Below, piece after piece: positions 24,112 through 26,585 of a stretch of DNA of 64,000 nt. Each line of letters begins with the position of its first letter. Position 1 is the first letter of the stretch. The position numbers and the translations under genes are program-made. The stretch spans positions 62,001 to 126,000 of the forward strand of contig NZ_FNQF01000003.1 of NCBI RefSeq assembly GCF_900107595.1. Direction: 5' to 3'. Below the pieces are notes generated by a model. It did not search any database. It had not been told where the DNA came from and was given only the letters and a program-made list of their open reading frames with translations. This DNA comes from Psychroflexus halocasei. GTDB lineage: Bacteria; Bacteroidota; Bacteroidia; Flavobacteriales; Flavobacteriaceae.

Positions 24112-24459
24112 GATAGATTGTTTTACAAATGTGTTTAGAATAGAATATAAATTTACTTTTAAAATTCTTGGAATCAAATGATTAAAATCAGTTGAACTGA
24201 ATTGTATTAAATGTACAAAGTTAAACTTTAATTAAAAACAAACAATTAGCTATAGCCAGAAAGTAACTTAAAAACAAGCTCTCATAAATGACTTATTCTT
24301 TAGAACAAAGACTTTTGTTAAAAACATATTCTGAATAAATTTTTAAATCTAATTAATCAGTAATTTATATTTACTGAGAACTCCTCATTCAAAAATAATA
24401 TTTAGTAAAAAGAAATAATTTTTAATATCATCTTGAGAACTTAAAATAGTTAATATGAA
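24112..24459. other. 348-base region upstream of the efflux operon
   Basis: This region is AT-rich with no supportable gene. It should hold the promoter of the minus-strand efflux operon, but I could not single out a convincing promoter or operator. Confidence 0.4.
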
Positions 24460-24788
24460 GATTCGCTGCGCGCATCCTGAAAGCTCAGCTTTGAAAATAG
24501 AAAGACCTTAAAAGAGATTTTAAGCAAGCTTGATTTCAAAAAAAATCAGTCCAATTCGAAAATTCACGAAGCAGGATTCGCTAATGCGCTTCCTGAAAGC
24601 TCCGCTTTGAAAATAAAAAGACCTTAAAAGAAATTTTAAGCAAGCTTGGTTTCAAAAAAATAGTCCGATTTAAAAGTTCACGAATCAGGATTCGCTAGCG
24701 CGCTTCCTGAAAGCTCCGCTTTGAAAATAGAAAGACCTTAAAAGAAATTTTAAGCAAGCTTAATCTCTTTTAAGGTCTTTCTATTTAT
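24460..24788. repeat. tandem array of about 115-bp repeats beside tRNA-Arg
   Basis: Three copies begin with GATTCGCT at 24460, 24575 and 24689, giving spacings of 115 and 114. Each carries TCCTGAAAGCTC, GCTTTGAAAATA, AAAGACCTTAAAAG and TTTTAAGCAAGCTT in the same order. Copies 2 and 3 are preceded by TTCACGAANCAG. The next GATTC, at 24804, lies in the T-arm of tRNA-Arg, exactly 115 bases on. The copies are about 90 percent alike by eye and contain no spacers, so this is not a CRISPR array. Confidence 0.85.
24725..24786 (-). terminator. long hairpin terminator after tRNA-Arg
   Basis: A perfect 21-bp stem (24725-24745 with 24766-24786, core AAAGACCTTAAAAG) encloses a second small hairpin, TTAAGC-AA-GCTTAA (24750-24763). 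It ends in an AAAA/TTTT flank. It starts six bases past the tRNA 3' end on the minus strand. Only the repeat copy next to the tRNA has both arms; the other two copies keep the left arm alone. Confidence 0.75.
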
Positions 24789-24791
24789 TCG

Positions 24792-24865
24792 TGACCCCGG
24801 CAGGATTCAAACCTGCAACCCTCAGAGCCGAAATCTGATGCGCTATTCAGTTGCGCCACGAGGCC
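24792..24865 (-). tRNA. tRNA-Arg, anticodon UCG
   Basis: The 74 bases fold into a full cloverleaf. The acceptor stem is GGCCTCG paired with CGGGGTC, with discriminator A. The D-stem is GCGC/GCGC, the anticodon stem TCAGA/TCTGA with loop TTTCGGC (anticodon at 24829-24831), and the T-stem GCAGG/CCTGC. CCA is not encoded. The T-loop reads TTTGAAT in place of the usual TTCGAAT, and the D-loop has GA where GG is usual, so the normal G19-C56 contact is replaced by A19-U56. It reads CGA and probably other CGN codons. Confidence 0.93.
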
Positions 24866-24919
24866 GATTTTAACTTATGCAAATATAATTTTTCAATTCA
24901 TCCGCGCAAAGTTTATATT

Positions 24920-25834
24920 TTAAATATGTGCTATTGAACTTTCCACAGCTTGCACATTGTTGGCATCATCAAAATAAAACTCAATTTGACCTAACTGCAA
25001 TCCTGCCCAACCGACTTGGTTAACCATCACATCTTTTCCTGCACTATTTTTAAAAACTTGTGGCTCCTCTAAAAATGTATGCGTGTGGCCACCAATAATT
25101 AAATCAATATCTTTTGTCGCTTTTGCAAGCTTGATATCATCAATTTTATCAGAATTATATTTATAACCAATATGAGACAAACAAATAACCAAATCACATT
25201 TCTGTTCTTCTTTTAAATACTTCACTTCATCTTTAGCAATCTCGATCGGATCAAGATATTTTGCTTCTTTGTATAAATCTTTTGAGACTAAACCTTCTAA
25301 CTCAATTCCGACACCAAAAACACCAACTTTGAATTGACCAACATCATAAATTTGATGCTTTTTCACCAAACCATCAAGACTTGTGTTTTTTAAGTCATAA
25401 TTTGAACTAATCAAATCAAAATCAGCGTGTTCAAGCTGTGCCGCAATATTATCAATACCATTATCAAACTCATGATTCCCAATGGTTGACGCATGATAAC
25501 CTAATTTACTCATCACTTTATACTCAAGTTCGCCTCCATAAAAATTAAAATATGGCGTGCCTTGAAAAGCATCACCAGCATCAAAAATTAATGTATTTGG
25601 ATTTTGTGCTTTAACTTTATTAATATAATTCATGCGTCGCGCTGCTCCACCTAAATTGGGATATTTCGAATGATCAGCCGGAAAGGGATCAATATGGCTG
25701 TGGACATCATTAGAATGCAAAATTGTTATACGCTTTTGCTGATCAGGTTTTGAAAAACTGCTTAATAAACTCAAACCACTTGTACTTAAAGCAGTTGCAG
25801 CAACGCCTGTTTTTATAAAATCACTTCTTTTCAT
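24920..25834 (-). CDS. 5'-nucleotidase family metallophosphatase domain protein
   Basis: From ATG 25834 the product has 304 residues; a longer frame exists upstream but the start at MKRSDFIKTG gives a proper export signal of Tat-like look (about residues 1-28). All metal motifs of the UshA-type N-terminal domain are present: HSNDVHSH, FDAGDAFQG, TIGNHEFD, CLSHIGY and GGHTHT. It hydrolyses phosphate esters, probably nucleotides, in the periplasm. It lacks the C-terminal substrate domain, which is supplied by the gene just upstream; the two coding regions overlap by 14 bases. Confidence 0.9.
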   Translation of the reverse strand: MKRSDFIKTGVAATALSTSGLSLLSSFSKPDQQKRITILHSNDVHSHIDPFPADHSKYPNLGGAARRMNYINKVKAQNPNTLIFDAGDAFQGTPYFNFYGGELEYKVMSKLGYHASTIGNHEFDNGIDNIAAQLEHADFDLISSNYDLKNTSLDGLVKKHQIYDVGQFKVGVFGVGIELEGLVSKDLYKEAKYLDPIEIAKDEVKYLKEEQKCDLVICLSHIGYKYNSDKIDDIKLAKATKDIDLIIGGHTHTFLEEPQVFKNSAGKDVMVNQVGWAGLQLGQIEFYFDDANNVQAVESSIAHI

Positions 25835-26585
25835 GTTTATTTTTTTGCGTAAAACGATCATCACTACTGATGTCAATCGTGTCCTTAGATTTAAAATAAT
25901 CAACAAGTAAACTTCTCAATTTATAATCGAGAACAGTCACATTTTTTGCTTTCTTAAAGAAATTCATATGATCTCCACCCGTTACCAAATAATCAGATGT
26001 CGCGACGTGATAGGTTTCATCATCATTAATTTTATCACCTTGAACTTCATAAGAAGCAAGTTTACCATCAGCATTCAGTTGAATTTTCAGTCCTGAGATC
26101 GGATGTTTCCCTTTGCTTTTTACTAGATAATCGGCAAGCTCTTTCATCTCTTTTGCAGAAAGTTCAGCCACGACAATTTCATTTTCAAAAGGCATAATGT
26201 TATATGCCGTTCGCATCGTAATGTCGCCTTTGTCAATGCCAGAGCGAATACCACCAAAGTTTAAAAGAACAGCATCAATTTGATTATTGGTTCGTTTTTC
26301 GTAAACAGGACTCCCGAGTTCAATCACAGCATCTGCCATCATATTTGCAATTGCAGAGTTGTAAGGTGAATCGTTTTTGTACATCGAGTTTGGCGTGTAG
26401 CTATAAACTGTGTTGAGTTCATCAGCTATTTTATCACGATATGGCTTAACGAAATCTTCAATTTCTTGATCAGATTCAATTTGTTTATTGATTTCAACTT
26501 GTTTACCAGTTGTTTTGACTTTTTTTAAATCGGGACTTTGACAAGAAAAAAGACTAATTCCTAATAGAAAAATTAAGATTCTCAT
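25821..26585 (-). CDS. 5'-nucleotidase C-terminal domain lipoprotein
   Basis: The product has 254 residues with lipobox GISLFSC at Cys15. It matches the substrate-binding C-terminal domain of UshA-type 5'-nucleotidases: NSAIANMMADAV (about residues 78-89), LNFGGIRSGIDKGDITMR (about 107-124), MPFENEIVVAELSAKEM (about 131-147) and YHVATSDYLVTGGDHM. It is the first gene of a two-gene unit with the separate catalytic domain, so the usual order of one polypeptide is reversed at gene level. It is anchored in a membrane by its lipid, whereas its partner is soluble or Tat-exported. Confidence 0.88.
   Translation of the reverse strand: MRILIFLLGISLFSCQSPDLKKVKTTGKQVEINKQIESDQEIEDFVKPYRDKIADELNTVYSYTPNSMYKNDSPYNSAIANMMADAVIELGSPVYEKRTNNQIDAVLLNFGGIRSGIDKGDITMRTAYNIMPFENEIVVAELSAKEMKELADYLVKSKGKHPISGLKIQLNADGKLASYEVQGDKINDDETYHVATSDYLVTGGDHMNFFKKAKNVTVLDYKLRSLLVDYFKSKDTIDISSDDRFTQKNKHEKK

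Follow-up and report, generated by a model that had tools for sequence, protein, structure and literature searches.

The window, as we call the whole 64,000-nucleotide stretch of Psychroflexus halocasei DNA analyzed here, harbors on its minus strand, at positions 24792-24865, a tRNA-Arg gene with anticodon UCG (24829-24831), an A73 discriminator and no encoded CCA end. The gene is called both by ARAGORN and by the Rfam model RF00005 (24791/24792-24865), the latter with 58.2 bits against a gathering score of 29, and the minimum free energy structure of its RNA is a complete cloverleaf (z -1.2). The acceptor stem (GGCCTCG/CGGGGTC) is followed by the D-arm (GCGC-AACTGAATA-GCGC), the anticodon arm (TCAGA-TTTCGGC-TCTGA), a variable loop reading GGGTT and the T-arm (GCAGG-TTTGAAT-CCTGC). 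The UCG anticodon reported by ARAGORN is of the NCG type expected of a CGN-reading tRNA-Arg, and the arginine determinants described for bacteria, A20, C35 and A/G73 (PMC9976931), are all present as A20, C35 and A73. The G18-U55, U54-A58 and U8-A14 contacts are likewise standard, as is A20, and the Levitt pair is A15-U48. The elbow of the molecule departs from the canonical G19-C56 pair: the D-loop AACTGAATA carries A19 (24847, minus strand) and the T-loop TTTGAAT carries U56 (24809, minus strand), which are complementary in the Watson-Crick sense and correspond to G and C, respectively, in the orthologue of the sister species. A shift in the D-loop alignment that would regain G19 was considered and ruled out, since the loop has a single G and position 56 of the T-loop is also U. 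These two bases had been pointed out in an earlier sequence-only reading of the locus, with which the sequence, ARAGORN and Rfam agree. That reading also described the rest of the cloverleaf as perfectly paired; the helices are indeed complete, but two acceptor pairs (G2-U71 and U5-G68) are of the G-U rather than the Watson-Crick type.

Flanks of the gene and tRNA complement of the genome

A promoter-like site of the form TTTG-N19-TATATTTG, which we take to be the Bacteroidota-type promoter consensus, lies 14 nt upstream of the tRNA (24880..24910, minus strand). The arrangement occurs three times in the window against 1.07 expected and is thus weak on its own; it also precedes the ACG gene described below and, with CTTG for TTTG, the orthologue of the sister species. 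The tRNA is immediately followed by an inverted repeat whose 25-nt arms enclose a loop of 12 nt (24725..24786, minus strand) and which may mark the end of transcription; it was given no terminator score in the terminator consensus scan of the flanks, where both the sigma-70 and the terminator scans were uninformative. The region immediately downstream of the gene (24424-24761) contains three direct repeats of approximately 108 nt, spaced by 114-116 nt, each holding one arm of the 25-nt inverted repeat (AAATAGAAAGACCTTAAAAGARATT), and these direct repeats were not found in the stretch of sister-species flank examined. On the other side of the gene (24920-26585), a 5'-nucleotidase-like function appears, by sequence reading only, to be split over two adjacent and slightly overlapping minus-strand reading frames (26585-25821 and 25906-24920).

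Recovered region by region, the tRNA inventory of the genome comprises 32 tRNAs, among which Ala and Ile tRNAs do not figure, and 33 Rfam matches, one of them weak and not called by ARAGORN. The elbow is normal (C56 with GG in the D-loop) in 30 of the 32. Only Arg(UCG) and Arg(ACG) depart from this, the latter located at G000:C21:118940-119013, with the same D-loop and T-loop as Arg(UCG) and therefore the same A19-U56 pair. Arg(ACG) is also the only other CGN-reading tRNA-Arg recovered, and the Arg(UCU) of the genome presents a normal G19-C56 pair. Neither an Arg(CCG) nor a second UCG tRNA is found among the 32, so that Arg(UCG) would be the sole tRNA expected to read CGG, a rare codon in the long reading frames of the window (4 occurrences, with 64 for the common CGA). 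Formation of inosine in an ACG anticodon requires TadA, and the genome encodes a TadA-like protein in which HAE and PCxxC motifs are present and which scores below the cut-off of the model. The sequence-only reading had held that a second, normal tRNA-Arg(UCG) would make this copy a possible pseudogene; the inventory recovered contains none, which favors a working tRNA. Its remark that such an elbow is rare in bacterial elongator tRNAs fits the other tRNAs of the genome (30 of 30 normal), but not the CGN-reading tRNA-Arg of the clade.

Distribution and covariation of bases 19 and 56

Within Psychroflexus, every Arg(ACG) gene found carries A19-U56, and the UCG tRNA carries it in 22 genomes, the two with G19-C56 being G008 and G022. 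Because the pair is shared by the paralogous ACG gene and, in most other Psychroflexus species, by the UCG gene, A19-U56 in Arg(UCG) is a real double change, due neither to chance nor to sequencing error. Beyond the genus, the matches listed for ACG in the Flavobacteriaceae have A19-U56 throughout, save for rare G19-C56 copies, and those listed for UCG are divided, with A19-U56 in many genera of the family and G19-C56 in many others, as well as in f4, f10 and several other families. Among the matches listed, ACG genes have G19-C56 in families of the order such as f10, f13 and f15, and, in other families of the class, A19-U56 in f17, f19 and f21 and G19-C56 in f16, f18, f22 and f23. In all true tRNAs among the matches listed, bases 19 and 56 match. 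The sole A19-C56 copy listed (G084:C13:41205-41247) belongs to a degenerate tRNA-Arg-like extra gene with anticodon GCG, which ARAGORN does not recognize. The change singled out by the sequence-only reading is hence compensated, as proposed, but it is not private to this gene, being the rule in Flavobacteriaceae ACG tRNAs, common in UCG tRNAs and found in other families too.

Covariation between the two positions is strict. Full-length UCG tRNAs (n=78) comprise 43 A-U, 35 G-C and no mixed pairs, and full ACG tRNAs (n=36) comprise 33 A-U, 3 G-C and, again, no mixed pairs. A scan of named genomes, with a pattern open to both purines at 19 and both pyrimidines at 56 and thus to all four combinations, yielded at least 119 UCG tRNAs with 67 A-U, 52 G-C and no mixed pairs among the matches listed; this set and that of 78 overlap in some species. 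Over 46 distinct sequences, the normalized mutual information between 19 and 56 is 1.0, level with the best stem pairs and with the established 15-48 and 9-12-23 contacts, and it does not exceed 0.46 between 19 and its own D-stem or 0.12 between 56 and its own T-stem. Bases 37 nt apart are therefore linked more tightly than neighbors, and A20 is unchanged in all 114 UCG and ACG tRNAs. On a species tree built from rpoB (57 genomes, quick LG+G4), the elbow state of the UCG tRNA has switched at least 12 times, a count that is unrooted and pools gains and losses. In the independent contrasts available on well-supported branches of this tree, 19 and 56 change together in eight of eight cases (sign test, p=0.008). 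The check suggested by the sequence-only reading, namely whether A19-U56 occurs and co-varies in relatives, is in this way borne out, and its contention that both bases changed together in a working tRNA rather than in a decaying one agrees with a compensated, functional-looking gene, with the covariation in relatives and with the lack of a second UCG tRNA in the set recovered.

Two side observations concern this comparison. The covariation of the 15-48 pair is also perfect, and the UCG tRNAs of G185, G302 and G318 combine a G-C Levitt pair with an A-U pair at 19-56; the two tertiary pairs therefore switch independently. TypA was tried as a species-tree marker and dropped in favor of rpoB, as the genomes contain a mixture of two divergent TypA types, about 67% identical to each other. 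Within the genus, the TypA/BipA found in G004 and G025 is of a type only 67% identical to that of the window, and G025 additionally retains a disrupted copy of the native type that contains stop codons; identities as low recur in several other genera.

Proposed origin and maintenance of the A19-U56 pair

On the rpoB tree, the window genome is sister to G022, a Psychroflexus MAG whose UCG gene occupies the orthologous position (78.6% identity over 1558 bp) and has G19-C56. The two UCG tRNAs differ at 13 sites, and at 12 of these the window has the base of its own genome's ACG gene. The ACG-like sites fall in two putative conversion tracts, a 5' segment spanning tRNA positions 5-25 (24840..24861, minus strand), identical to the ACG gene at 8 of 8 sites differing from the sister, and a 3' segment spanning positions 50-64 (24801..24815, minus strand), identical at 4 of 4. 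Between them, the anticodon arm and variable loop (positions 27-48; 24817..24838, minus strand) keep the UCG form, and all six unchanged sites that still separate the UCG from the ACG forms are located at positions 27-44, anticodon included. The sole difference that does not follow the ACG gene is G68 (24797, minus strand), which re-establishes pairing, as G-U, with the ACG-derived U5. In a second sister pair, G014 and G008, the ACG base is present at every differing site (11 of 11), with the ACG gene of G008 as reference. In both sister pairs, then, the differences between orthologues are clustered in tracts and equal to the paralogue, as expected of gene conversion. From these 12 of 13 and 11 of 11 ACG-equal sites around a preserved anticodon arm we infer conversion of the UCG gene by the ACG gene, and it is most likely by this route, rather than through two local substitutions, that the Arg(UCG) of the window acquired A19-U56. 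The compensated pair put forward in the sequence-only reading thus stands, and its origin in two local substitutions appears less likely than conversion.

Other lineages present partial versions of the same pattern. Relative to G052, G228 shows ACG-like changes in the T-arm and an ancestral D-arm apart from G19A; relative to G298, on the other hand, G300 has the ACG D-arm and a T-arm of ancestral type apart from C56T. That single-arm cases occur in both directions, and that no mixed states were found, points to selection on the 19-56 pairing. In further lineages, of which G003, G010 and G216 are examples, essentially 19 and 56 alone have changed and both stems are of ancestral type, a situation equally compatible with a pair of point mutations and with conversions of very short length.

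The explanation that we regard as very probable, taken as a whole, is that of a working Arg(UCG) whose A19-U56 pair reflects repeated conversion by the ACG gene together with selection for pairing. A19-U56 would have reached fixation early on in the ACG isoacceptor of this lineage, the ancestral UCG gene would have had G19-C56, and the D-arm of the UCG gene, its T-arm or both would repeatedly have been overwritten by the ACG gene, through conversion between dispersed paralogues. The UCG anticodon arm would have been kept because it is needed to read CGG and CGA. A conversion bringing in A19 or U56 alone would create a mismatch, which selection to keep the elbow paired would remove through a second change on the opposite side, and this may account for the missing intermediates; in the species of the window, both flanks of the anticodon arm would have been converted. 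One genome counts against this explanation. The only ACG tRNA listed for G130 (G130:C6:637869-637911) has G19-C56 and is of a different type, with a CTACGAA anticodon loop, and the UCG tRNA of the same genome has A19-U56, so that donor and recipient do not always agree. It is possible that the ACG gene of G130 was replaced by another type.

Several other explanations were weighed. That each lineage underwent independent compensatory double point mutations, its likeness to the ACG gene being convergence under the same constraints, seems improbable to us: several lineages in which 19 and 56 are essentially the only departures from the ancestral UCG form speak for it, but the 12 ACG-equal sites of 13 between the window and its sister include bases of the D-stem and T-stem for which no match would be required, and G014 and G008 repeat the pattern at every differing site. 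We attach a similarly low probability to A19-U56 having been selected as a mark of CGN-reading tRNA-Arg, whether it serves ArgRS, RNase P or a modification enzyme or shields against a tRNA nuclease, with a parallel switch in both isoacceptors as the result. The restriction of the pair to CGN-reading tRNA-Arg in the window genome, its recurrence in two paralogues and its near fixation in ACG (33 of 36 full sequences) agree with such a mark; nevertheless, Arg(UCU), which is served by the same ArgRS, retains G19-C56, the UCG tRNA has G19-C56 in about half of the relatives with no visible harm, the known determinant A20 is invariant, and conversion with selection for pairing accounts for the pattern with no need of such a mark. 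Doubtful, too, is a combined version in which, across much of the Bacteroidota, active selection maintains A19-U56 as a signature of CGN-reading tRNA-Arg, which a trans-acting factor recognizes or requires or which evades one, and which conversion under positive selection has spread to the second isoacceptor; if true, the "universal" G19-C56 would have given way to A19-U56 as the usual state of one isoacceptor family.

The unusual elbow is all that suggests a pseudogene in decay or a spare copy gained by horizontal transfer, which we consider very improbable: the gene is orthologous in position with that of the sister species, its cloverleaf is complete, a promoter-like site lies upstream and no other tRNA of the set recovered should read CGG, while a truly decayed copy elsewhere, that of G084, has a broken 19-56 pair. 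The probability of an assembly or sequencing error is negligible, for the same bases recur in the second CGN gene of the genome and in most of the genus, and the relatives refute it.

Taken at the level of sequence, the A19-U56 tRNAs are a real, functional-looking variant of an ordinary tRNA that extends over the clade, probably spread by conversion between two isoacceptor genes and held by selection for pairing. A large clade of bacteria with one tRNA family on A19-U56, and with close relatives and sister genes on G19-C56, constitutes a natural experiment, which suggests that selection holds pairing and shape rather than base identity. Matched natural pairs of A19-U56 and G19-C56 tRNAs could be used for testing elbow recognition, and partial gene conversion between single-copy bacterial isoacceptors is indicated as a route across a fitness valley.

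Comparison with known systems

On its exposed face, the 19-56 pair meets the A-site finger and L1 stalk of the ribosome, as well as ribosomal protein L5, RNase P and further partners (PMC4810234, PMC5309774, PMC10495418), and G19-C56 is called universally conserved in one of these works. No description of a natural bacterial A19-U56 or of a Bacteroidetes exception was found in the open-access papers searched, which is not proof of absence. Compared with a canonical bacterial elongator tRNA-Arg, such as the UCU tRNA of the same genome, Arg(UCG) shares the cloverleaf, G18-U55, U54-A58, U8-A14, A20, C35 and A73, and differs in having A19-U56 for G19-C56 at the elbow and A15-U48 for G15-C48 at the Levitt pair. 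A19:U56 and C19:G56 have been engineered in mammalian mitochondrial tRNA-Ser(UGA), and in the human mitochondrial tRNA-Ser the engineered A19:U56 restores the charging that is lost by a mismatch (PMC10412605). A19:U56 can there stand in for G19:C56 in aminoacylation, and for this reason the A19-U56 tRNAs of the Flavobacteriaceae are expected, by analogy, to work normally, with an elbow pair of similar shape. The tRNA-Ser(UGA) variant is, however, a laboratory mutant of a mitochondrial tRNA, whereas here a bacterial isoacceptor family carries A19-U56 naturally. Finally, the sequence exchange between tRNA genes of one family proposed here is akin to the tRNA remolding and concerted evolution described in animals (PMC4981973), from which it would differ in that the anticodon identity is kept and only the surrounding arms are overwritten, and in that it involves single-copy bacterial isoacceptors.
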